Source: Apostichopus japonicus | Taxonomy: Eukaryota; Echinodermata; Holothuroidea; Aspidochirotida; Stichopodidae | Reading direction: 5' to 3' | DNA: 64,000 bases | NCBI RefSeq assembly: GCF_037975245.1 | Contig: NC_092566.1 | Span: forward strand, 1,860,001-1,924,000 | Part shown: piece after piece, positions 2,323-50,300 of the stretch | Numbering within the stretch: the stretch's first letter is position 1 | How the letters are laid out: each line of letters begins with the position of its first letter | Notes under the pieces: model-generated | What the model saw: only the letters and a program-made list of their open reading frames with translations | Told to the model about the DNA's origin: nothing | Database searches by the model: none | Made by a program: the position numbers and the translations under genes

Positions 2323-5300
2323 CCATGGTAATCGTTGTTTTATTCATTCCGCAACATAGTCAGATCTAGTGTCCGAAGGGGGGGGAAAGGGGGGTTTAAC
2401 ATTGTTCTGATTGGTCTAGTGGTACTGTACCATGATGAAGGAGGAACTGGTCATAATTATGGTGAAGAACTGGCCATATAAATGTGGGTGGCAGCCTCCT
2501 TCAGCTTCATTCAGATTTGACAAGTACTGTCAGCCTCCAGTCAATGCAATCTCCAAATTACTTTTATAAACTGGAATTAGTTGAAACAAACGTCAGTGTA
2601 AATGTTAATATGTGAACTGTTTTGGTAGTTGTTGGTTAGTGTCAAATTTGTAATTTTTGCATATTTTAATATTTCTATAACAAGCTTATAAAGCTATATA
2701 TACATGTATACATATCATACTCACTAAAATAATTGCATGCAGCATGTTATAATCATATTTATGTTATTGATTAAAACCAGACTATTTTTTTTATTGGAAG
2801 CACTAACTCTCTGGGCATTGTACTGTTTGTCTAAGAGGAGAAAATGAGAGGGATTGGGAGGAGGTTGTATTTGTCTGTGTGTGGGTGGGTGGTTGGGTTG
2901 GCTTGGGGGAGGGGGATTTTTGGAACTGGTGAGAGGGGAAACTAACATTTTTGTGCTACCACTCAAACTACACCAGTTTCTCTAAGTATGTAAAGTCAAC
3001 CCACTATATGTATATCCGATTGCTTCACTTTCCTTGATCATGTTTACTTGTTATCAGAGTATTTTAACCTCTCTTTATTTCTCACCTTCCGTAATTTCTT
3101 TGTTTTTTACCATCTACCTATCATCCAGTAGATTATATTTTGGTGACATTGGCATGCGAAGGCAAGAGTCTGGAGGCAAACAGCATGGTTTGAAAAATTC
3201 TCTTTTTGATAATTCGTTTTTTGATGTGATCATCTTCTGACATGGTCTTTTGAAAGTTTGAAGTGGGATCTGTTTTGCAAGCATGCTACAACCACACAAA
3301 TCCAACCAACCCTCTTGCAACTTATAGTCCACTACATCAAACCCCTCTCTCCTCTCCCCTCTCCCACACCACTGACCATCGTTTTGGCTTCATTTTTGTT
3401 CCTCTAAGCAGGCAATACTTAATTTCAATAGATCTTGCTTTATATTTACATCCACGTGACATTAAAACCATAATATTGGTTGCCTTCAACACAGATGAAA
3501 TATAATTTTTAACAAGAAACTTTGTTGTTTCATATTTCTGATAACTGTTCCATTTAAATACATCTGGCTTTAAACCTTGTGAGTGGCCTACATTGACAAA
3601 AAGCTTCATTACTATGGGGAGTTGACCTTTCCATGGGTGGGAAAGGGGTGGGTGAAGATGACAGGGGGAACTGCAAATCTAGGAAGTTCACAAATTCATC
3701 TGAAACGTTAGACACTAAAGTATGCTGTAAATTGTTGTCCATCTGCCCACCCCCTTGCCCCTTCCTTAAATTATAAACCCCTAGAGGAGGGAGTGGGTCA
3801 CCTTACTTCCTTCGATTTGTTTAAACATGGGTTTTCTGTTAATACTTTGTTTCGTCCTGCTGCTTGGATCGTTATCACTGAAAAGTACAAAATAAAAAAA
3901 CAAATGGTGGGAAAAGGTTCCAAAAGAATTGCTATTAAAGAAAGCAAAAGAATTTTGACATCTCAAAGCAAGTTTGCTGAGTTTGAAAACATTATTGTTA
4001 CCTATCAGCTGATCATATCTCTTGATTTGAAGTATAAAGCTTTTGTTTCCATGGCTGCTTTGATTTTTTTCTTCAAGTTTTTTTGACCAAGAGTGGTGTT
4101 TTTATTCGCCATTGCTTTGCTGCTGTTTGCCCAAGTCTCTGAACTCGTTTGCCGGTGTCACCGAAACTTTCTAACTTTTGAACCTTTGGTTTTCATTCCA
4201 GTTTTTGTTCTTCACAGAGTATAGAGAGTCTGACCTCACTCTATTTTGATAATGCTTGAGTTCAAAAGCAGATGGTCAAAGGTCAAGCAAGACAATAATA
4301 TGGAACGACGACGAAGATGGAGAGGTATATTATGTCCGACTGAGGCTGGCTTCTCTCATCCTTTTAAGAGTGAGGAAATCTTCAGCTTCAGAGACTCAGA
4401 AAAGGTACCTCTTAAATTCCCACATCGACAGCATGGGGGTTGTATACCCACTTAATCAGCATAGTGGCTACCCAGGAGCGTGATGGACTCGGAATTCAAG
4501 TCAAGGACTGAAAAGGAGAGGATGATTTAAAAAGAGGAGAGAGGAGAGAATTAATGATTTGAACATATCATCGTAACAATCACATACAACTCAGAACAGA
4601 AATTTGTTTATATTTGTCACAATTGATTAAAGGGACTGTGTACTGGAAGAGACACTTTTGAGCCTCAAAGATGCAGCTGGGTGCATTTGCAACATTATTT
4701 CTCTTACCATAAAGTGCACTATCACATAACTTTGAGTTTGAACTCGTTCGTTAATTTTAACTCAGTTTTATTGCTTAAACTCATTCAATTTAAGTTGAAC
4801 TCATTCTGTTAACTTGAACTCATTGTCAAAGTTTGAACTTCATCAGTTAGTTTGAACGCATTCTCTTAGTTTGAATTCATTCTCTTAGTTTGAACTCACT
4901 CTGTAAGTTTGAATTCATTCTATTAGTTTGAATTCATTCTATTTAGTTTGAACTCACTCTGTAAGTTTGAACTCATTCTATTAGTTTGAACTCATTCAGT
5001 TAGTTTGAACTCATTCAGTAAGTTTGAACTCATTCTGTAAGTAAGAACTCATTCTGTAAGTTTGACCTCTTTTCTATTAGTTTGAACTCATTCTATTAGT
5101 TTGAGCACATCGTCTTAGTTTGAACTCATTCTGTTAGGTGGAACTCATTCTTTTAGTTTCAACTCATTCTGGTAGGTTCATGTCAATCTGTTTGTTTGTT
5201 GCAATAAGTACATTACAGAGCTTTAAAACTCTTCAGGAACTCTGTTGTTTTTCAACAAGAACATCAACAGTTCGACTAGACCTACTGCACTACCATAGCA

Positions 5301-26388: not shown

Positions 26389-29300
26389 ATGGAGGTTATA
26401 CCATTCACCCGTGGGGATGTTCTTGTTAACGGTTGGCTGGTCACCAGAGGACCGAGTCGTCTTCCCTTTCGCCAGTGGAGGCCTTACTGGTGCGTTCTCG
26501 CCGGGGATCAGATATATTATTTTCGTCTGGCTGGATCCATTCCTTTGAAGGGATGTAAAGTTTTATCTCGTACCAGTCATGACCCCGAAGAGCCTCTCGG
26601 ATTTGTTTTAGAGCTTCGCCCCGGTGAGTAAATTTGAATGTTTTAGTAATTGCTGTGATGGGACAGCTTAGTGTTCAGGAATTAACTCATTACTGCTTTG
26701 TTCATAAGGCACAGAGCTGACTCAGTTGGGTTTTTGTTAGTCATTTTGAGATATGAAATCTTTTAACGTACGTATTGGTTGGACCTTTGGTGACACATTG
26801 GGCTAAGGCTACTGTAGAAAAGTTCACCTAGTCAATTCCTCATGTCACTGTCCCATTGGTCAGGTCTTTCAAAACCTGAAAAACTTGCAGCAACCATACC
26901 CCTTTAGAGTGTAGTTAAAGAACATTCGGTATGCCTTTTTACTCATTGATATTTTCTTCATCTCTAACAATTTCATCAACTTTGGTTTTGTTTGGCCTTC
27001 TTGGAGAAGTCACGATATTTACTTGTAATGTACAGGTTCACCCTCTCTCCCCTGACTGACAACATCCACAGCCGTGGCATGTAAAATGTTCTCCAGCAGT
27101 GCCCTAGAAATTCTGTATGAAATACCCAGTACTACTAATACCAATACAGTACTATACACTGTACATACCTGCACACTGTTTGATAGCAAGGAACCCACTG
27201 AAGTTTTAATTGGTTGACCCAGTGTTTTAATTTCCACGACAATTTAAAAGTGCTTAGAGTGGTGTATCACTACTCACTACAGACATCCTGTGACTAGGAA
27301 GAAATTAATTAATTTCATTGGTTTGTATGATACACCATTAAGTTGTTAAACCGCGTTTCTGTTCAAGGAAAAAAAAAACTGAGTTGACACATTTCGGGGG
27401 GTACAGTGGTGAGCTGCGACTTAGGACTTCAAAAACTGTGGGTTAACACCCAAAATTCTGTTTAATAATCAGAGGGAAACAAAGTAATAACTTCAAAAAC
27501 AGGAAATCTCTGGTGAAGTATTGAAGCAGCGAGTGTTTCATAGCACCGTGGGAGTTTTTTTGTTTACAAACTTTTAAATTGCGAAAGATTTCAGATGTGT
27601 TTTAATATCCTCTTCCGGGCTACAAGGTCATATGGGGTTACTGTACATCTAATCTTTTGTTTTCCTTTCCATTGTATGATGGTCTATAAGAACTTGGAAG
27701 TAGTTTTTGTCCTCAAAATCTACTTGCAACCCACCATCCATATACCCCCATATCAACTGGGTAATTCAGTTTGGTACATTCAGCCTAGTAGGGCATTCAG
27801 TGATCATATGTATCAGTAGCATTGGCAAAGGGGAAAAGAGATTTACAGACAAAAATTTGGGGTTGGGTGGTGGTGGTGGTTAGGGGGGGAGGGGGGTGGA
27901 GCGGGACAGGGGAAGTAGTTTGGAAATTTGGAGAACCATGTATTGTCTAATGCACCTGAAACCTAACTTGAAGCTCTGAAGTAGAATAATGTGACAACTT
28001 GGAATAAATTATTGCTCTGATCTGAATCTGACCTTTTCAAACATAAATAAATATTGATTCTATATTTATCAGAGTAGAGGAAATGCCAGGATGTAGTTTG
28101 TTTATATATTCCCTAATGATTTTGTTTTTTAATCATTAAAGTTAAATCAATATTACTATTTAAAGTACACTGCTCAGGAACTCTGATTAATTTACATTAG
28201 TTCCTGCCCCATATACAACATATATTCATAAATAGGACAATGTCTTGATATGAGTGAACATAACAATGCTTGGCAGAGATTGGAGGGGCTGGGGGGGGGG
28301 GCGGGTTGGCAGCAGCTTTTCTGAGAAGTTCAATGGATATTTGCAGTCAAAGTCTGAAAATGTTGTAAACATGAAAACTCTAGAAGTACATCTTTTTTGA
28401 ACTTAATACTTAGTATGTAGATCCAGCTTGGTGAGTACAAGAGTCATATTTGAAATTGGTACAAGAAAATGGTCACATGAGGTAAATAAGTGCTTAAGTC
28501 TGAAAACCTTTTGAACATTACAACTCAAAAACTTTACAATCACCCTGTGAATTCTCCAATGCTTTGATTTTCTTTTGGTGAACATAGTTCGGTCAAATTC
28601 AGTTCAGTTTCATTTTGTGATGGGGCTCTAAAGGTCTTCAACAAACTATATACATTAATCCAGGAATGTAATCTGCATCAAAGATATGATAGTCTTGCTT
28701 AAATGACACTCTCTGGCTCTTATCAGTTTTCACCCTCTGAACTTCAAGGTCTTGGTCAACAGGTTATCTCAAATGGTGCAAAAATTGGCTCAAGGGATCA
28801 ACAGGTTATGTCAATTGGTCTCAAAATTGGTCATTTTCTCTGTGATTTATACCAGATGACTTTTGCTTTGGCAGTAGGTTGTAAAAATATTTCAAAGTGT
28901 ATAAAAAATGTCATGTAGAGCTTAATAACAATTATTATTTGCTAGCTCAACATTGGTAAAAGAAAATGTCCTTTCATTCATACATCTATGTGTCTATATT
29001 TCACATTGGAAGTCTTTTCTTTCCGGATTTTTGAACATTTTGGAACAATTCTACAAATTCTAAAATCCTTACCAGTGAATGAAATGGTTGATGCCCACAA
29101 GGGAGTGCTACAAATCAGAGCCGGAAATCTCTAATATTTTCTGGTCCTCACTTAATTCTAGGACAAATTTAAATCACTTGCTCTACAAGTCTACATTAGT
29201 CAGATAGTTATGTGGAATTTTAAGCAAGTTGTATGGCAAGGAATCACAAAGCCACCTGGCTTAATTTCTGGCTAGATTACTCATTCCTGTACTGTACATC

Positions 29301-32300
29301 AAGGATACACTCATGTTATTAAGCCCTCAATAGAATCCGTAGCGAAATGAGTATGTCACGATCGTGTTGTTCCTTCGAGGATGTTCGTTTCCGATGAAAT
29401 GCATATATAGTATGCGATGACACCTATTTGGGATTATATCGGATGCAGTCACCCTTTTTCGGATACAAGGAAAATCCCCGAAGAGTTCAGGGGTGACTCG
29501 AATCGTAATGACATGATGACAACTATTTGACAAGGTTCATGGTTCATGGTCTGTACAGTGATGACATGTATAAAGTAACGTGTCATCACATTATAATGAT
29601 AACATGAAGCTATACGTGTTGCTTGATATGTCTTAGTGCAGGCAGGGATCCACCCATACAAAAACTTTACCTGGATCTACTTCTCAGACTGCAGTGGGCG
29701 GGGGGGGGGATGGGATTGGTGGTGTGGAGGGGATATCCAATCAGTAAGGTTGAGGTGGTAAGACCTGAGGACAAACCTTATAAGTTTGACATCAGCAGGA
29801 GTTGTAACTTTGAACAAGATGTATTTATTGTTCAGTAACTTGTTTGCATGCAGGCAATTTTTAATAATTCACTCGATAAAACTTTGTTTACCTCGTTGCT
29901 GTTTTCTGTAACTCAAGCTTCTGTCGTAATATTGACCTGAACTGCTCTTGCTATGCAAACTAAGACTATCTGAGTCTCGCTATGTTTTGTGTCAAAGCAT
30001 TATATGGTCCAATGCATTGTTAAATGTCAGTTCTGTTTTAGATGGCTGTTACCAAGGGCAATAAGAAAGTGTGGGGGGGGGGGGAACATTGGCTCTAACG
30101 GCCTCTAACTTCCAGCCTTGTCATTCAGGCTCTCTTCTAATCTGGATATTTGACATGGATCTTTCTGTTGATATTTTTCAGTGAAACAAAAATCCTCACA
30201 CCATGATTCGAATGAAGACAGCCAAAGACATGGGAAGCCTTATCCACTGTGTTCCCCTAAGCAAGCAGAACTGGACTTGTGGGAGAGAGAAGTACGCAAA
30301 GTGAGAGGTGGTAAGTAACCAAAAGGAACCGGGGGGGGGGGGAGGGGTGATGATACACAAGAACGACAGGAGCTAGGTAGCAAAGATGTAGCTCATTAAA
30401 CCAGCTGATTATGTTTGCAAGAACTCTCTCCTGCCATGTCATAATCTCCTGCCTAAAATAGTTTAAACATGATTTTAAGTCTTCAGAAAATACAGCTGAG
30501 GTTTTGAGTACTTCACAGAAGTGAGAGACACCTTATTGATGGAAATTTACCTCAAATGGAATGCAAAACCTTACGTAAACCTTCCTTGAGTGTGAAAATT
30601 GCTCTGTTGACATATATATCCGTCAGTCTAGTATAGAAGCAGTTGTTTGTGTTTGGTCAAGAACTTGATCAAATCAATTTATTACTCCAAGCAAGGTTGT
30701 AATATAGATCACATTAAAGACAAAATCTTATATATTTTTGCTGCCAATTGAAATATACCATGTGAAGGTTGATAAGGGAGTAAATGGATCCATTCCCGAA
30801 ATGTTGTCACTCAGAAACATTTTCATATCAGCATTCAAAAACACTTGTAACTTATATGCAAAATTTCAAAATGTTTATACTTATCACTTCATTATTTGAG
30901 ACCAAAGCTTGACCAACCAATCAAATTACCTACATTATTATGGGTGTTTCATATTGAAGCATCCCAAACAATAAGGTAAAATGTCTTGCTTTATTTTACA
31001 ATATATTATTGCTCAATACAGTACCACCTCCTCGCACCCCCCCCCATCCCACCCCCTGACACAAACACAAATTAAGAAGAAAACAAGAGGGCAAAAAAGA
31101 AAAGTTCACAGCTTAACTCTAGAATTGAGGTGAAACCTTTTCCCAGTTCTTTTGCTCTTTGGATGCGTACACATTGAATGATAACAGTGCAGATTGTTGA
31201 CTTGTTTGGGTTTATTGTCCGATGCCAAAGTATTTGAACTCCTTCTTTATGCAATTTCCTACTGATGGAAGCATGTGTCGAGTTGGGGGTGGATGTCTTC
31301 AATTAGACAGATGTGAATGCACTTCTATGACACCTAACTCTATACCCGATTCCCACCTGGTCAACAACAGGTGACATCTTTAATTTGGTTACGTGGGATT
31401 TGTTTACTTGGTCAGATGAATTGAAATGACTGGAATTCCTTATACAATTTCTTGAGGTTTATTTCATCGGGTAGTTATTGTCATTAATAAGGTCACTAAT
31501 CAATTAAACTTTGACTGAGGATTCTATCCCGACTCAAGAATTGCTAGATAAGCCAAAATGGCCACAATACTGAAAACTTAAATAACACACATTTGGCAAT
31601 CCTCTGAATGTGTGCTGTATCTATACATTCATGCTGTAGTACTTGCTATAGCAAGTACTACAGCATGAATGTGTATACATACAAGTTGAATTACCCTTTG
31701 TATGAGTACAAGGCTCAAAGCTTTAATTTTTTAATTTCTCAAAATATGTCTGCAGTTGTTCAAACTGAGAAACATTTTGGGATGTTGTCACCTCATGATT
31801 GTCATTCCGGAAGCAATTAATGATTCTATTTTATTGTGGTAGTTTTGGCATGTAGACTCATTTTATCATGTCAGTGTTAATCACTTTCAAAATTCCAAAA
31901 CAGAAAGTCTTAACCTGGTCTTTTTTGCTGCTTTAATATATAACTTGGCTATAGTTAACTAATGAAATGTATATCGATTTCTCGTTAGTATCGTAATTAG
32001 TATTGAACCAATATCAACATTTTCACAATGTCAGTGCAAAAGTTCCTATCGACGTTGGTACCACGATTAAATGATGCCTCTCTTTGCCTTATTGTGAAGT
32101 CTCTTTGAAATAGCAGTACCCCAAATGAGGACCAACTGAATTTCATCATTATTCATTTATTTCTCATTTGCTGAGGCAATCGGCATGGAGAACCAGGGCC
32201 CGGCCGGGTACAATAATGTTACCGGGCCCCACTTTGAAGTCTTTGTCTTTTCCTTAAGTGTATTATGGTTATGAGAATATAATATTCTTCATCTCATATT

Positions 32301-35300
32301 TCCTGGCCGGGCACTCTGATATACCCCGGGCCTTGTGACTGTGGCCCCTTGACCCTCCTCCTCTTGTCAGCCCTGCTTGTGGCTTGGAAATGATATACAG
32401 GAGTTACAAGGGGATTTTAAATGAACGTGAAAAATATAATGCATGTTGGGAATTGACAAACTCTGGGTAAGAAAGGTTTTTGCTTTTGTGCTGTAGTTTA
32501 AAGTTTTCCTTATTCGGCTCTCTGCCTTGGTCTGTTTCAAACCCTGTTACTCTCCTATTTGTTTGGGCAGGCATCTTTGGGTTGGTCTGTTTCACACCCT
32601 TGTTACACTCCTATTCGTTTGGGCAGGCATCTTTGGCTTGGTCTGTTTCACACCCCCGTTTCTCTCCTTTTTGTTCGGGCAGGCATCTTTGGCTTGGTCT
32701 GTCTCACACCCCCGTTACTCTCCTTTTTGTTCGTGCAGGCATCTTTGGGTTGGTCTGTTTCACACCCCCGTTACTCTCCTTTTTGTTCGTGCAGGCATCT
32801 TTGGCTTGGTCTGTTTCACAACCCTGTTACTCTCCTTTTGTTTGGACAGGCAACTTTGGGTTGATCTGTTTCACACCCCCGTAATTCTCCTTTTTGTTCG
32901 TGCAGGCATCTTTGGGCAGAGCTTAGAAGATACCATAACAGATGAGAGTGAGACGAGTACCAGATCAATTCCGAGTATCATTGAAATCTGCACAGAGTAT
33001 TTACAGAAACATGGTTTGAAAGAGGAGGGATTGTTCAGGTAAAACAATTATCTTTAAGATTTAGATTAAAGGCTTAATGTAGACGTACTGTATGAATGAG
33101 ATGAGGTATATTGGGATATGTATGGATAAACTTGTATTAGTCACATACACTGACATTGGCTCAATAATGGTTACCATGGGAACAAAATGATTGCAATTGC
33201 AGGAGGCTGCAGTTTGTGTTGAATATGCAACAGTTTATTCATACCACTGTGGATTATAAAAGGAAAGACCAGATACTTAGTCCAACATTGCAATTGGAAT
33301 GACAAAATTACTGGCAAGGTTTGCAAATGAAACTAGATTGAGTATGTGGGAAATAACATTCTCTATGATGGATTAAATGGTTAAGTACTTGTTTGGTGGT
33401 AAATGTGATTGTAACTACATAGATAACTTACTCAAGAATGGGAAGTATATAAATTCAATTATATAGTGAAAAATACATGCATAGCTTGGTCAGAGTGACA
33501 GGAAGTTTACAGCTCGATGCAGAATGCAACTTTTAAGCTTGGTATAAAGCTATGTATGACACCTGGTTGGATTAACATTTGATATATTAGGTTGGGTAAC
33601 GTAACATACTAGGAGCGCGAGGCTTATATTGTCAAACAGTGCCAGAGTAAGATCCTCTGGGCCCCTAACACACAGTATGCTCATCTACCCCCCCCCCCTC
33701 ACCCCTCCCTTCCTTTGAACTGGACGCAACCCCAAAATTGAAAGTTGTTAAGTCTAACCAGGGAGTTGTTATGGAACAACTCCCTGGTCTAACCTAGAAG
33801 TTTTCACTGGGGCCCATTGACCTTGGGTGCCCCTTGATATTAGGCCCTTAGGGCACTCCATCTGCATATTAGATGATGTAGATTTTTGTCTAAGTAATGG
33901 TTACCATGGAAACAAATATCATTGCAGTATACAGTGGCAATGGCATACATAGCAACTGTAACACATATGACATATATGTAATCATATATATATCTTTAAC
34001 ATTCAGCAGATAGAATGTCCAAGGATCCTTGAAAGACATGTAAAAGAGGGTGTGTAGAGTTAAGATCTAGTCATAATGAGGTAGTGATTGAATCATAGTG
34101 GGCGATGCTCGGATCTTGAATGACTCATTCTATTCAATTTGTGAGAACTGGTTAATATCGCTGGCCAAGCAATAGAATCAAACCCCTGGTAACATGGAGA
34201 CCACCAGGTCATTCAACCAGACTAACGAGCACTCATTTGGGAAATGGTTTTTTAATATGCGAGTGAAAGAGAGACAAGAAAACTAGGCCAGCATGTTGAG
34301 AACTGTCCAATATCTCTTCATGTTTAGATGGATTAGTTTGGAGACGGTCTTCATATATATATCTTTCCTGTCTAGGCATAGCCAGATCTAATTGACTCTG
34401 CTCATCATCATTTAAATTGTCTTTATTTAATTTTCCACCAAAATGAATCATTTCTTTGTCACCTTAAGCTTGGTCGGTAAATGGCAGTAATTATGCTAAT
34501 TAAATTACAATTAAAACAACTTGATGTGCTTTTTCTGTCGGTATTGACAAATCTCTTTACCATTCATATCTACCCAGCATGCAGTCCTGACTTTCTTGAA
34601 AGGGGTAAAAAGGGGCAGGGGAAAAATGGGGTAGGGCAGGGGTAAAAGGGGTAAGAGCAGGGGTAAAAAAGAGGTAGGGGCAGGGGGATTAGGATTGATC
34701 TTTCCAACTTAGAAGTAAAGGGAGGGGGGAGGGGGGAGGGCGGCGGCAAAACCTCCATATATTCATTTCCAAAGGAAACCATTTCTATGCTATTACAATC
34801 GTTAAGCATTTTCTCTTTGTGAATAAAAGTACAATTTTCATAACCATCTTGTCAAAATAATCAATGCCTTGTTGTGCCATAGCATCTTTGCCATGGAAAA
34901 CACTCAGTTTTATCAAGTTCTTGACAAAAATCCTGTCAAAGGAAAACATTGGTTGCCTGTTAAGAGGTGTTTAAAGTGTTTGCATTCAACACTATTTTTC
35001 CTTTAATTTTCCTTCCTTTGTCTTTTCTCTACCAGACATTTAACAACTGCTTAAGTATCACTTCCTTGATGTTTACATGTCACAATACTTTCATTAAGTA
35101 CAGTAACTTTCATGCTATATATTTCAATACATATATATCTCTATAGCAAAATGAAGCCTAACCTGAATAAAACAGAAATATTCCTGTTGCAGTGTTGCTA
35201 GGATCCAGTGGTGGATATCCTGAACACTGTTTTATATTTATTTTTATGATCTTTTTCTCTCTTTAATTCACAGATTGAATGGTAGAAATGGAACAGTCCA

Positions 35301-38033
35301 AGGACTTCAAGATGAATTTGACAAAGGTGAAATACCAGATTTTGAGCAACGAAATTCCAGCGTCCACACAGTAGCGTCGTTGATGAAACGGTACCTGACA
35401 CTGCTGCCCGAACCTATTATCCCATGGAGGCATAGCCGTTACTTCATACCAGCTATGCAACGGTTACACGAGAATGAACCCGATGGTCAGAAGCAACTCA
35501 TGATGCAGCTAGCCCTACTTCCTCGTGTCAATTACAATCTCTTGAAATATCTCTGCGAGTTTCTCCACGAGGTGCACAGATATCAGATATATAACAAGAT
35601 GAGCTTGGGGAATTTAGCCAACATCTTTGCACCGCATATTCTGCGACCGCAGCATGCAGAGGGCCAGTATCTGTTGGGGAGTACCGCCCTCAGTCTGCAG
35701 CTGGTGTATTACCTGATCCGTCATCACGACGTCATTTTCCCGCCATTCAGTGTCCTTCATGAGCAGATTTCGTACCAACCTCAGGAACTGATTAATCATG
35801 ACAGGTTAGCCAAGGAGTCTACCCTAAGACCGTCTTGCGAGGACCTGCCACTCCCTAAGGAAACAGAGGTGAGACTACGTAATCACGTCATGAATATCCA
35901 TTTACCAGACGGAAGTAATTACACAAATAACGAGGTCATCGAGAGAAACAGTTGTGACTCAGAGTGTGTGGATCAGCTCAAGAATCCCATTTACGAAAAT
36001 GTGGACTTGGCATTACCTAGAAGTAGCCCCTCGGCAGGGTCAATCGTAGAGGCCATGAGGACCAGGGTGCCCCCTAAGCCAAAGCCAAGAACGGATCAAA
36101 AAGCCAAACGCTATGGAATATCGTACAAGGACACCCCGTCGGTGCTGACAAAGCTTGGTGTAGGAGAGAGAACGTTTTCAAACGCCTCAAAGGCTATCAA
36201 GTCGTCAAACTTGTCAGATGATAGTAAAGAACTGGGAATCCTCTTTCACGGGAAGAAGAAGAAGAAATGGCAGAAAGAGGATATTCACAGTCAGATAATA
36301 TCCACTTATCAGAATTTAGAGGTCGGCTTACAACCGTTGGCTTGCCTTAAAGATCCCGGAGTAACATTCATGAACTTCAAGAATGCCAAGAACATTCCCA
36401 ACGGCAGAGAATCTAAAACCGTCGCGAGTAAGAGGGCGCTGTTTGCCTCGTCTCACGATATTATGAAGAAAGGCAGCGGACCTTTCGCCCCGGTCCCAGT
36501 GCCGAGAAGCTTCACGGGCGACTCCATCCAAGACGAGAATTGTAACGAGAGTTACGAAGTCAGCCTACCTCTGGAGATGAACATAAACAAAGACGTTGCG
36601 GGGACTGTGCTTGCATTGAGGACGTCTCTGGAAGAGAAGGATGACGAACTGGCCCAGCAACAAAAGATTACAGAGAAGCTGAAGAAGGATCTTGAGATCT
36701 TAAAGAATAGATTATCAATGGAGGTAATTAGCCATTCAAAATAGCTACTACCATCAGTATTACCTGACAAATATGCTAGAAAAGTCAAATAATGGTCACT
36801 TATAATCAAACTTCAACAGGTGTTCAACTGAATTCCTCAAAATGTCTTCCTCTTAGGAGACATCCATCAAATAAATGTATTCGGTAATGTCAATTGCAAA
36901 GTGCCATGGAAAATGGGCAAATTGCTATACAAGTGCAAAGATGCATGCATCGCAGTTTTTGTTCACAGGAACTATAGTATGCGATAAGAAACAAAGTACA
37001 TCAAAGCTGTATCAAAACTGCACAAAATTTTACACTAAATTATTATTCCCTGACATCCCTTCCATAAAGTCTGTTATAATCTCTTGGGGTAATTCTAACT
37101 TATTTCTGATGAAAAACACACTCTGGGTTGAAGTACAGCCTATTAATAAAGTTTTGCTTTTATATAATTTTAATTCTCTCATCTTGTTGCTAAGCAACAT
37201 TTCTATAGCACCATTGTGAAGCAGGATTTTATCTAGAGATTGTGTAGCAAACCTGCCATGCAAATGAGTATACTGAACCTGTATAGTATCTAATAGTTAC
37301 ACAGTACTCAGGGATGTGCCCAGGATTTCCTGAGTGCGGGGTATACTGATCGCTATCCTGGGGGAGGGGCCTAAGTGGAGGGGTGACATTTTTACGTACG
37401 TGGTGCACTCGCCCTACAACTGCCAGCCTGACATTGACAAGGGCAAGTTGTATACAAAGCTAGTGTAGTGTGATACTGCATGCTGCAGATTAAAGCCACA
37501 CCTACTCCATATCTCCGCACCTGTGTTTATGTGAAATTGACAAATGGGGGTAAACGAGGATACATGTGGCCCAATTTATGTTGAATATAATATTAGGAAT
37601 GTCTGAATATTAGATGATAATAGTGCTGGGCGGGATTCACGATTTTTAAGACAGTGCTGGGCGGTAATTTTTAGTGCTGGGCGGGGCCGCCCAGTGCCGC
37701 CCAGCGTGGGCACATCCCTGAGTACTGTTATATTTTATCAGGGACAAAATGCTATAAACCCTGACATTGTTATCCAAAATGGTAAAATTTTCACCACTTC
37801 TTGGGAATTGTTATTAGTTTTTACACACGATTTGATTAATGGAAGTATTATCAATGCAACAAAAGATGTTAGGAATTCTTTGATGTACATTTGGTGTTTA
37901 AATGTGAAGGGTTGATATTTCTCACATTTTGTTCTTTTTCTGACAGGCCATTGCTAGACGGCAGGCAGAGACAGAGAATGAACTCTTACAAGAGCAACTT
38001 CAGAGTTTGAGGCATCGTCTTGGATCCATGTAA
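26389..38033 (+). CDS. ARHGAP22/24/25: PH-RhoGAP-coiled-coil protein of the ARHGAP22/24/25 (FilGAP) family
   Basis: Exons: 26389-26623, 30182-30310, 32906-33038, 35274-36723, 37947-38033. All are in phase, giving 677 residues. A PH domain spans exons 1-2 (about 12-120), ending with the helix QAELDLWEREVRKV. The RhoGAP domain begins in exon 3; its arginine finger, in GLFRLNG, is Arg166, whose codon is split by intron 3. Family motifs HTVASLM, LPEPIIPW and NLANIFAPHIL follow. The large exon 4 then encodes a long low-complexity linker with a proline-rich PPKPKPR stretch. A coiled coil of about 65 residues closes the protein. Vertebrate relatives act on Rac/Cdc42 to control actin and protrusion; ARHGAP24 binds filamin A. 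This looks like the single invertebrate co-orthologue, which is inference. Intron 2 ends in a minisatellite that multiplies the exon 3 acceptor. Confidence 0.93.
28753..28840 (+). repeat. Dispersed repeat copy, internally duplicated (intron 1 of the RhoGAP gene)
   Basis: Two tandem versions of a 45-bp motif built on TCAACAGGTTATCTCAAATG. A copy in the opposite orientation lies at 41211-41250, sharing 25 consecutive identical bases. No terminal structure was recognised. Confidence 0.6.
31625..31672. repeat. Perfect 48-bp palindrome without spacer
   Basis: Bases 31625-31648 are exactly the reverse complement of 31649-31672, with the centre at CTATAG. The single-strand form would be a 24-bp stem with no designed loop. 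It lies in intron 2 of the RhoGAP gene. Flanking GTATCTAT and GTATACAT match at 6 of 8 positions, too weak to call a target duplication. Confidence 0.92.
32515..32916 (+). repeat. 56-bp minisatellite spanning the intron 2/exon 3 junction: seven tandem 3' splice sites
   Basis: The unit contains TTGGTCTGTTTCACACCC, a pyrimidine tract CTCTCCTTTTTGTTC, CAG, then the first 10 bases of exon 3 (GCATCTTTGG; GCAACTTTGG in the sixth copy). The acceptor AGs end at 32570, 32626, 32682, 32738, 32794, 32849 and 32905; spacing is 56 bp except for one 55-bp step. Only the last joins directly to the conserved GIFGQSLED sequence. One frame is open from 32527 into exon 3, so use of the acceptors at 32626 (+279 nt) or 32794 (+111 nt) would be in frame; use of 32849 would meet a TAA stop within the extension. 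Confidence 0.93.
33752..33794. mobile_element. Candidate miniature element made of two terminal repeats only
   Basis: CAGGGAGTTGTT at 33759-33770, a four-base spacer ATGG, then AACAACTCCCTG to 33786 form a perfect hairpin, flanked by the direct repeat GTCTAAC on both sides (33752-33758 and 33787-33793). CAGGG is a common hAT end. It may be a 28-bp internally deleted MITE remnant, or a chance hairpin with duplicated flanks. Confidence 0.5.
37309..37720. mobile_element. MITE-like element (412 bp) in the last intron of the RhoGAP gene
   Basis: The ends CAGGGATGTGCCCAGG and CGTGGGCACATCCCTG are inverted repeats (15 of 16). AGTACT flanks both sides (37303-37308, 37721-37726) as a 6-bp duplication; with the adjoining AC/GT the original target would have been the palindrome ACAGTACTGT. 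The right part repeats TGCTGGGCGG several times. There is no coding capacity. Its ends resemble those of the hAT-like elements elsewhere in the window, but the 6-bp duplication leaves the superfamily open. Confidence 0.7.
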
Positions 38034-44318: not shown

Positions 44319-47300
44319 TCAATTACCATCGCTGTCAAATTTGATGGAGTTCACAGATGTGTCGATGAAACCACCTTTGTAGCTGCCGCGCTTCTTTTTG
44401 GTCTTCTCGTGTCTGAAAGCTTTTCCTCTCACCACCCTCAGATCCTGGTTAGCTCTTTCACCCCATGAACCTCTGGCTCCTCTCTGAGGTTGGAGAAAGA
44501 TAGAGAACGGATTGAAAGTGTGGTGTAAAATGAAATAAGGTTCAATTGATATGAGCGCATTATAATAAACCTGAACAGTTTTATACAACTCCAACCAGGG
44601 GCGTAGCCAGGATTTTCAAAGTTGTAGGCACGCCTATCTGAGCAGAGCACCACCATTGGTTGGCGCGGAGCAAACAAGAAAAGTTTTGGTTTCACAAACC
44701 CCCAGATGGCCGGAAACCGCCCTTCCCGAGTGTTCATCCTGGTTCCCTGGCCTCTTTCTAACTTGAACACCTCATTCAATTATCACTTTAAACCCCAAAA
44801 AACAAACAAGTTAAAATATTAATATAGAATTATGAGTGTTTAAAAAAAAGATAACTTGGCCAAAAAAAGTGTAGGTCCGGGCCTACAGTGCTTCATATTG
44901 GCTACACCCCTGGCAAAATGGACAGACTGTTCACAATGATCAAGGTATAACTACTGGATTGTCATGGATAATAATTACAGCAGACTGTCTAAGTGTCTGG
45001 TCATTTTCAGGTGATTTATAAAGTTGTGGACCAATAGGTTGCACGCAAATGACTTTGAACAGTGTGTACTTGCATCTTTCTACAGTATAGGGACATCTCA
45101 TGCAAATATACTCAATTCAGTTCAGAAATTGTGTTGCCCTTTACTAAAGCTGAATTTTACACTATACAAATAGCAAATTGGTCATTTGATAATTTTTAAC
45201 ACTTTTCGTGATATCTGAAATGAAACGTGGACTGGCAACGAACTGCTGTTACAACTTAAATAGTATCATGAATCAAAATCAAATCTTTCCAGGGAAAAAA
45301 GTCACAAAAAGGGTTCTTTAGGTATATTGACATTCACATGGTATGCCAGATATCTGGATCAAAAGATGATCATATTGGGCGCAAAAATCAGACGATTTGA
45401 AGACAAAATATTATTGAAACCCAACACGAGAATCACTGACACAAGATGCTGAATAGGGCAAAGTCTTCATAAAACAAAAGTATTGATTTTGACCACCTGG
45501 AAAATTCATTATACGCATCTATTATAACTATTACCTTTGCTTCAAATGAATTATTGCTGAATTTGTTTTCTAATTCATGATCTTCTTCTCGTACTCGCCG
45601 AAAAGGTTCATTCTTCACTTCACCATTCTATGAGAAAATTGAAAAGAAAAAAACCCTATTTTGTTAAAACTTTCATGACCAGGCAATTAAATACAAAGTA
45701 AAACAGATTAAAGAGGCTAAGAGTGAAACAATAAGAAGCACAGCTTGGTGCTACTGTATCATATTTACAAAATTATGAATAGCATACAAAATAGGTATAT
45801 ACTGACGAGTAAATTGCCAGAAAGTTTGCTATAAAATGTGTTATTACCAGAGAAGCTTGATTCTTATAGTGTGTGCCTCTATGTACAGTATGTTCGACTC
45901 CTGCCACATAGACAATGGGCATTTCATGTCAAAATCAAATGACATTCTGTTTCATGATATTTCACATATCTGACAAGAGTCATGTGAAGTATGACATTAC
46001 ATATCAGATCAACATACAGGGAATATCTAAGAGTTCAAATTATTTAAAGGTTGTGAATTTTGTCTCTCATCAAATGCTGTTATTGCTTACTGTGTAAACC
46101 TACAGTACAAACCTACTATACGTCTTTGCAATTGTACAGTACAGCAGCAGGTGGACGGTTTGAGATATGATTGATACCGGTAAAATATTCCTGATATTGA
46201 TATCTTGATATGATATACTGTAAAGTGAGGCAAGGCACATTTCAGATGCCCAAAAAAAAGAGAGTTGTTTGCAAGCTGGTGAACATTTTTAAGCTTACTG
46301 ATTTTAGAAGGTAAAGAGCATATATCACTATTAATATAGAATGTCCTTTTCTCTAAAAAAAAAATTGAAATTTAAGAAAATGATAAAGAAAGAAAGATAC
46401 AAAAATCATAATGAGAGAAAGGAAAAATACTCATCAATTTCACCTTTTCAGACTGCAGTGAGTAGGTGAATAGATTTTACTTTACAGTATATTCATAAAA
46501 TATTTCTCATTAATTAATTGAAATCAGGTATTTTCAAGACATACCTTTTTCTTGTACTTTTTTGGCTTGGATGGTGTTTCTTGATTATCATCTGCTTCCT
46601 CAGGTGAGATTTCCTTGATTCCATTTGTCAAGTTTGCTGTTTCTGATGCAGCAGGGGTGCTAGAAGCCACTGGTTTTGGTTTCTCATCTTCACCATCTGA
46701 AGAATCATCACTACTGCTACTCTCATCTTTCTTGGCTGCTACTGGTGTTGCAGCTTTAACAGGGGCTGGTTTCTTTGCGGCTGGTTTCTCATCTTCACTA
46801 TCTGATGAATCATCACTACTGCTACTCTCATCTTTCTTGGCTGCTACTGGTTTTTTGGCTGCGACTGGTGTTGCAGCTTTAACAGGTGTTGGTTTCTTTG
46901 CGGCTGGTTTCTCATCTTCACTATCTGATGAATCATCACTACTGCTGCTCTCATCTTTCTTGGCTGCTACTGGTTTCTTGGCTGAGACTGGTGTTGCAGC
47001 TTTAACAGGTGTTGGTTTCTTTGCGGCTGGTTTCTCATCTTCACTATCTGATGAATCATCACTACTGCTGCTCTCATCTTTCTTGGCTGCTACTGGTTTC
47101 TTGGCTGCGACCGGTGTTGCAGCTTTAACAGGGGTTGGTTTCTTTGCGGCTGGTTTCTCATCTTCACTATCTGATGAATCATCACTACTGCTGCTCTCAT
47201 CTTTCTTGGCTGCTACTGGTTTCTTGGCTGCGACTGGTGTTGCAGCTTTAACAGGGGCTGGTTTCTTTGCGGCTGGTTTCTCATCTTCACTATCTGATGA

Positions 47301-50300
47301 ATCATCACTACTGCTGCTCTCATCTTTCTTGGCTGCTACTGGTTTCTTGGCTGCGACTGGTGTTGCAGCTTTAACAGGGGTCGGTTTCTTTGCGGCTGGT
47401 TTCTCATCTTCACTATCCGATGAATCATCACTACTGCTGCTCTCATCTTTCTTGGCTGCTACTGGTTTCTTGGCTGCGACCGGTGTTGCAGCTTTAACAG
47501 GGGTCGGTTTCTTTGCGGCTGGTTTCTCATCTTCACTATCCGATGAATCATCACTACTGCTGCTCTCATCTTTCTTGGCTGCTACTGGTTTTTTGGCTGC
47601 GACCGGTGTTGCAGCTTTTACAGGGGTCGGTTTCTTTGCGGCTGGTTTCTCATCTTCACTATCCGATGAATCATCACTACTGCTGCTCTCATCTTTCTTG
47701 GCTGCTACTGGTTTTTTGGCTGCGACCGGTGTTGCAGCTTTAACAGGGGTTGGTTTCTTTGCGGCTGGTTTCTCATCTTCACTATCCGATGAATCATCAC
47801 TACTGCTGCTCTCATCTTTCTTGGCTGCTACTGGTTTTTTGGCTGCAACTAGTGTTGCAGCTTTAACAGGGGTTGGTTTCTTTGCGGCTGGTTTCTCATC
47901 TTCACTATCTGATGAATCATCACTACTGCTGCTCTCATCTTTCTTGGCTGCTACTGGTTTTTTGGCTGCAACTGGTGTTGCAGCTTTAACAGGGGTTGGT
48001 TTCTTTGCGGCTGGTTTCTCATCTTCACTATCTGATGAATCATCACTACTGCTGCTCTCATCTTTCTTGGCTGCTACTGGTTTCTTGGCTGAGACTGGTG
48101 TTGCAGCTTTAACAGGGGCTGGTTTCTTTGCGGCTGGTTTCTCATCTTCACTATCTGATGAATCATCACTACTGCTGCTCTCATCTTTCTTGGCTGCTAC
48201 TGGTTTCTTGGCTGAGACTGGTGTTGCAGCTTTAACAGGGGTTGGTTTCTTTGCGGCTGGTTTCTCATCTTCACTATCCGATGAATCATCACTACTGCTG
48301 CTCTCATCTTTCTTGGCTGCTACTGGTTTCTTGGCTGCGACTGGTGTTGCAGCTTTAACAGGGGCTGGTTTCTTTGCGGCTGGTTTCTCATCTTCACTAT
48401 CTGATGAATCATCACTACTGCTGCTCTCATCTTTCTTGGCTGCTACTGGTTTCTTGGCTGAGACCGGTGTTGCAGCTTTAACAGGGGCTGGTTTCTTTGC
48501 GGCTGGTTTCTCATCTTCACTATCTGATGAATCATCACTACTGCTGCTCTCATCTTTCTTGGCTGCTACTGGTTTCTTGGCTGAGACCGGTGTTGCAGCT
48601 TTAACAGGGGCTGGTTTCTTTGCGGCTGGTTTCTCATCTTCACTATCTGATGAATCATCACTACTGCTGCTCTCATCTTTCTTGGCTGCTACTGGTTTTT
48701 TGGCTGCGACCGGTGTAGCAGCTTTAACAGGGGCTGGTTTCTTTGCGGCTGGTTTCTCATCTTCACTATCTGATGAATCATCACTACTGCTGCTCTCATC
48801 TTTCTTGGCTGCTACTGGTTTTTTGGCTGCGACCGGTGTAGCAGCTTTAACAGGGGCTGGTTTCTTTGCGGCTGGTTTCTCATCTTCACTATCTGATGAA
48901 TCATCACTACTGCTGCTCTCATCTTTCTTGGCTGCTACTGGTTTTTTGGCTGCGACCGGTGTTGCAGCTTTTACAGGGGTTGGTTTCTTTGCGGCTGGTT
49001 TCTCATCTTCACTATCTGATGAATCATCACTACTGCTACTCTCATCTTTCTTGGCTGCTACTGGTTTTTTGACTGCGACCGGTGTTGCAGCTTTAACAGG
49101 GGCTGGTTTCTTTGTGGCTGGTTTGTCATCTTCACTATCTGATGAATCATCACTACTGCTGCTCTCATCTTTCTTGGTTGCTACTGGTTTTTTGGCTGCG
49201 ACCGGTGTTGCAGCTTTAACAGGGGTTGGTTTCTTTGTGGCTGGTTTCTCATCTTCACTATCCGATGAATCATCACTACTGCTGCTCTCATCTTTCTTGG
49301 CTGCTACTGGTTTCTTGGCTGAGACTGGTGTTGCAGCTTTAACAGGGGCTGGTTTCTTTGTGGCTGGTTTCTCATCTTCACTATCCGATGAATCATCACT
49401 ACTGCTGCTCTCATCTTTCTTGGCTGCTACTGGTTTCTTGGCTGAGACTGGTGTTGCAGCTTTTACAGGGGTTGGTTTCTTTGCAGCTGGTTTCTCATCT
49501 TCACTATCTGATGAATCATCACTACTGCTGCTCTCATCTTTCTTGGCTGCTACTGGCTTTTTGGCTGCGACTGGTGTTGCAGCTTTAACAGGGGTTGGTT
49601 TCTTTGCGGCTGGTTTCTCATCTTCACTATCTGATGAATCATCACTACTGCTGCTCTCATCTTTCTTGGCTGCTACTGGTTTCTTGGCTGAGACTGGTGT
49701 TGCAGCTTTAACAGGGGTTGGTTTCTTTGCGGCTGGTTTCTCATCTTCACTATCTGATGAATCATCACTACTGCTACTCTCATCTTTCTTTGCGGTGACT
49801 GGTGTTGCAGCTTTTGCTGACAATGTGACCTGTTTTTTCATGGGTGGCTTCCCCGTTTTATTTGAAGGTGTTGCATCATCACTGGAGTCAGAATCATCCG
49901 ATGAGCTTGATTCTTTTTTTCTCTTCCCTACCATTACTTGTTTCTTCACAGCTTTTTCATTTTCACTTTCTGAGCTCTCTTCATCAGAGGATTCTCCATC
50001 ACTTTTCTTAATTTTCTTGGTATTCTGCTGCTCATTTAAAGCAGAGCCTTTTCGCTTTTGCCCTTGGTTTGGCTTTTGCCATCTCTTGAAAATACTTCCA
50101 AGGCCTGTGCCAGGTTTAGCACCATCATTCTTCTGTAATGAGAGAAGAGAATAATATGATTGAATGAAAAGGTAATTTGGAATTACTTGCTGAACTGGAA
50201 CATTGTCCATTTCTTCATCACATGGTTGCCTGAATGAGAATCCCAACAGCCTAATTTCTCAGTTTTCCAAACAGTATAAGCTCTGTCGTATAGCACTGTT

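Follow-up and report, generated by a model that had tools for sequence, protein, structure and literature searches.

The 3′ splice site of exon 3 in a PH-RhoGAP gene of Apostichopus japonicus lies within a 56-bp minisatellite of seven units, so that complete acceptor modules stand in tandem before a single exon. We consider the array probably a near-neutral mirage, that is, a minisatellite spanning an exon-intron boundary, with splicing mainly to the exon-proximal copy. Analysis of the window (the whole 64,000-nucleotide stretch of DNA) using TRF revealed the repeat at 32527-32916, with a period of 56, 7.0 copies, 88% matches and a score of 584; when the region from intron 2 through exon 3 to intron 3 was shuffled 200 times with dinucleotides preserved, the best TRF score reached 68. 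A search of the 671.6-Mb genome placed the 56-bp array at a single location.

For coordinates, the units were set in the register CTTGG...CAG|GCATCTTTGG, which gives seven units on the forward strand at 32526..32915, the array beginning in intron 2 and taking in the first 10 bases of coding exon 3. Copies 1 (32526..32580) and 6 (32805..32859) are 55 bp long, while copies 2 (32581..32636), 3 (32637..32692), 4 (32693..32748), 5 (32749..32804) and 7 (32860..32915) are each 56 bp. Identities between units range from 80 to 96% (one haplotype), and the 10 exon bases carried by each unit show one difference among 70 cells across the seven copies. The earlier note on this DNA had described a 56-bp minisatellite repeating the pyrimidine tract, CAG and 10 exon bases, with AG ends at 32570, 32626, 32682, 32738, 32794, 32849 and 32905; TRF and the unit register agree with this description, and all seven positions are correct. 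The array is flanked by CTCTGC (32520-32525, left) and GCAGAG (32916-32921, right), which are exact reverse complements and may be so by chance.

The splice signals are intact throughout the array, with a pyrimidine tract and a single CAG in all seven units and no further AG in the 46-nt intronic part of any of them. A yTnAy motif (TTCAC or CTCAC), its A lying 31-32 nt before the AG, is found in copies 2-7; copy 1 has TTCAA at this place and no consensus branch point. The earlier proposal that complete acceptor modules are repeated thus holds for tract and CAG in seven of seven units and for the branch-point-like motif in six. When the 3,786 forward-strand AGs of the window were scored, the seven acceptors all fell within the top 2.2%, using a textbook matrix that is approximate and not trained on A. 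japonicus. The acceptor 21-mers of copies 4, 5 and 7 are identical, and none of the three is therefore favored by its local strength.

The host gene was modeled from four coding exons on the forward strand, which join across GT-AG introns into one 655-aa frame. Exon 1 (26389..26623) encodes the N-terminal part of the PH domain and exon 2 (30182..30310, followed by a GTAAGT donor at 30311 in phase 1) the remainder. The RhoGAP domain starts in exon 3 (32906..33038), with its arginine-finger codon split by intron 3, and is completed in exon 4 (35274..36744), which also encodes the C-terminal region to the stop. Pfam detected an N-terminal PH domain (E 1.2e-6) followed by RhoGAP (E 2.2e-39). Among solved structures, the sole PH-domain match was KIAA0053 (1v89; ARHGAP25); RhoGAP matches comprised ARHGAP35, ARHGAP1 and others. 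The arginine finger of the EGLFR motif is present as KEEGLFRLNG, which lines up with the EGIYR region in solved RhoGAP structures. GIFGQ, the conserved start of the RhoGAP region, is encoded across the phase-1 junction (G|GC ATC TTT GGG CAG), and the acceptor in the conserved frame is therefore 32905|32906. The array had been said to contain the acceptor of exon 3 of a RhoGAP gene, in agreement with the PH-RhoGAP model and the boundary fixed in this way. PH followed by GIFGQ and then RhoGAP is the layout of ARHGAP22/24/25, and the domain order together with this motif suggests a gene of the ARHGAP22/24/25 type.

Copy 7, whose AG ends at 32905, is the predicted functional acceptor on the basis of the reading frame and the conserved GIFGQ/RhoGAP start. 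Translation from the upstream acceptors showed that two retain the frame: 32626 (copy 2) would add 279 nt, or 93 aa, and 32794 (copy 5) 111 nt, or 37 aa, precisely the insertions given in the earlier note. That note had also assigned a stop to 32849 (copy 6), which is borne out; to this should be added premature stops from 32570 (copy 1), 32682 (copy 3) and 32738 (copy 4), so that four of the six upstream acceptors lead to premature termination. A frame is open from 32497 through exon 3. The unit is pyrimidine-rich, with only five A in its 56 bases, and when it was shuffled, 28% of the resulting units had no stop triplet in any frame; since this composition accounts for the stop-free stretch, the open frame does not count as an indication of coding. 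Because the 56-bp period is not divisible by three, the reading frame rotates with each copy and no repeated peptide results.

Other splice junctions in the genome were surveyed using 120 exons identified with RhoGAP, myosin-head and ABC-membrane profiles (approximately 50 gene loci, three families), a junction being scored as duplicated when the 30 bases over it recurred within 345 bp at ≥80% identity. Duplication was found at 7 of 109 donors (L015, L026, L035, L041, L062, L091 and L100) and 1 of 93 acceptors (L089), or about 4% of the junctions surveyed. Control 30-mers were duplicated at 8.3% for random intronic positions and 0.5% for mid-exon positions. The difference between junctions and mid-exon positions was significant (Fisher p 0.0015), while that between donors and acceptors fell short of significance (p 0.07). 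The matches are confined to five of the approximately 50 gene loci by our grouping, and are thus not independent.

Two of the duplicated donors, L026 and L035, belong to two exons of one RhoGAP gene (G000:C18, ~529,100-532,800) and are spanned by minisatellites of 65 bp × 7 and 60 bp × 15, respectively; at L035, successive occurrences of CAGG|GTAAGT are 60 bp apart (14.6 copies by TRF, of which seven were examined). In one myosin gene (G000:C4, ~23.98-24.00 Mb), donors are tandemly repeated at three exons (L041, L091 and L100), with CTAG|GTATGC every 53 bp at L041 (TRF 17.4 copies, eight examined). The duplicated acceptor, L089 (G000:C19:15,108,583-15,109,441), consists of three near-identical copies of ~125 bp that take in the 3′ splice site together with ~50 bp of myosin exon sequence.

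Across the survey loci, duplicated 30-mers become gradually less dense on passing from intron to exon, and no peak was found at the junction. Within 60 bp, tandem duplication is several times rarer near acceptors than near donors in these loci, presumably reflecting constraint on the branch point and pyrimidine tract. A concentration of splice signals in arrays was also considered and rejected: three AGGTAAGT donor consensus sequences at 50-80 bp spacing occur 342 times genome-wide, compared with 424 times in the reversed control, and thus show no excess. Lacking both a junction peak and a triple-donor excess, the junction arrays are best regarded as the tail of abundant intronic minisatellites, not as structures built around splice signals.

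Arrays of this kind were previously described as mirages in the amphioxus genes Adh3, BflGb6 and BflGb9 (PMC3087553), and RT-PCR of the globin genes suggests regular splicing (PMC3087553). For Adh3, the same report likewise suggests regular splicing by RT-PCR, and gives unit sizes of 10-72 bp that overlap the 56 bp found here. One amphioxus array differed between two haplotypes, with 6 versus 3 units (PMC3087553). In lancelet PGBD5, repeats of 60 and 108 bp lie over splice sites, and TnC is cited as a further case in that paper (PMC3902484). The A. japonicus array resembles these in that a tandem repeat of minisatellite size (56 bp × 7) spans an exon-intron boundary, as placed by the gene model, includes the intron end and part of the exon, and keeps splice signals intact in many copies; like BflGb6, it concerns a 3′ boundary. 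It differs in phylum, being from an echinoderm, and in gene.

In human ABCA7, the unit of the intron 18 VNTR is 25 bp long and opens with the splice donor of exon 18; skipping of exon 19 correlates with VNTR length, and one-unit retention occurs at ~2% (PMC5954066). As in A. japonicus, a functional splice site lies inside a tandem repeat, offering a potential site per unit. In ABCA7, however, the repeated site is a donor and not an acceptor, the repeat starts at the splice site and not within the exon, and both polymorphism and the effect of length on splicing are proven. Intron gain by tandem genomic duplication has been reported for potato RdRp (PMC4974935), and human tandem repeats in segmental duplications have been described in the same context (PMC2812944). 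These share with the present array the principle that new splice choices can arise when sequence carrying splice signals is tandemly duplicated close to an exon boundary, but here the array occupies an existing intron and exon edge, with no new intron as far as the sequence shows. No splice-junction array from a sea cucumber or any other echinoderm turned up in the literature searched, which does not imply their absence elsewhere. The kind of structure is already known, though little studied, from amphioxus and one human case, and the sea cucumber is a new place for it to the extent searched.

Three other explanations of the array were weighed. The added copies could reflect repeats inserted or collapsed during assembly, as assemblies are error-prone at repeats. 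We regard this as scarcely credible: the array is just 390 bp long and its copies differ by substitutions and indels. The published A. japonicus HiFi/Hi-C assembly was built from PacBio HiFi reads averaging 14.7 kb, at 64x (PMC10344927), and single reads of this length span the array. It is also very unlikely that the repeat forms an exon extension coding for a hydrophobic linker that connects PH to RhoGAP. The open frame running into exon 3 would fit such a linker, yet stop-free units are readily produced by shuffling, the unit length yields no repeated peptide, and each unit keeps an intact acceptor with its pyrimidine tract. Moreover, in the ARHGAP22/24/25 relatives PH is presumably joined directly to GIFGQ, which also counts against an extension.

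A functional length-variable switch, in which upstream acceptors would be used regularly and the balance between normal isoforms, extended ones (+37/+93 aa) and those subject to nonsense-mediated decay would depend on array length, is more likely than either of these and still improbable. The shared 21-mer of copies 4, 5 and 7, the two in-frame acceptors and the effect of VNTR length on splicing in ABCA7 (PMC5954066) all speak for it. Against it, the frame rotates with every unit and is broken by the indels in copies 1 and 6, most upstream acceptors lead to nonsense, and composition explains the open frame. Neither the density profile nor the triple-donor count gives any sign that junction arrays are favored, similar arrays recur at a few percent of surveyed junctions in the same genome, and amphioxus mirages appear to be spliced normally (PMC3087553).

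We therefore favor a near-neutral minisatellite that overran a junction, given the absence of a junction peak and of donor-consensus enrichment in arrays. In the proposed pathway, a 56-bp segment in which the last part of intron 2 is followed by the first 10 bases of exon 3 would have been tandemly duplicated, followed by expansion through slippage, unequal exchange or conversion, with the whole 3′ splice site copied each time. Copy 7 would normally be chosen by the spliceosome, as judged from precedent and from exon definition, since it gives a 133-nt exon compared with 189-468 nt from the upstream copies. The latter would be used rarely, mostly yielding transcripts removed by nonsense-mediated decay. 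The array would then be near-neutral, one among many in a minisatellite-rich sea cucumber genome. Since the small survey suggests that such arrays are common here, this one is probably just tolerated and does not serve as a dedicated switch. As a counterpoint, the identical acceptors of copies 4, 5 and 7 leave room for some upstream use, and the two in-frame isoforms could be translated. The measurable use of donor-array variants in ABCA7 likewise indicates that the array need not be silent. By analogy with the known systems, variability in the copy number of the 56-bp array is plausible.

The frequency of such arrays in the sea cucumber is a more interesting result than the single array. Their presence at ~4% of surveyed junctions, together with the handful of amphioxus genes, suggests a general feature of minisatellite-rich deuterostome genomes. 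A stronger proposal, which we consider possible but rather doubtful, is that splice-junction minisatellites are pervasive here (a few percent of junctions) and that their copy number measurably shifts isoform and nonsense-mediated-decay output at many genes, including this RhoGAP gene. Near-identical tandem splice sites at one junction allow the spliceosome's choice between equal sites at differing distances to be studied in a natural experiment; intron sliding and gain might also draw on such arrays as raw material.

Several further repeats and domains were observed in the window and genome. On the reverse strand, 46728-49790 contains a coding array of 123 bp (41 aa) × 25 with 97% match, within a 1,224-aa open stretch in which SSSSDDSSDSEDE and PAAKKPTPVKAATPV blocks alternate; the stretch may resemble Nopp140/NOLC1. 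A 19-bp minisatellite of 24 copies with a higher-order period of 134 bp lies at 4735-5198. On the 16,099-base mitochondrial contig, COX1 translates sensibly only when AAA is read as asparagine, as in the echinoderm code. The contig G000:C29 (31,219 bases) contains two sets of COX1 matches and is about twice the mitochondrial length, and appears to be either a concatemer of the mitochondrial genome that was left unresolved or a nuclear copy. Ubiquitin-hydrolase (UCH) domains with equal scores were found on many chromosomes inside open frames of 1,000-2,000 aa, suggesting a transposon-borne deubiquitinase.
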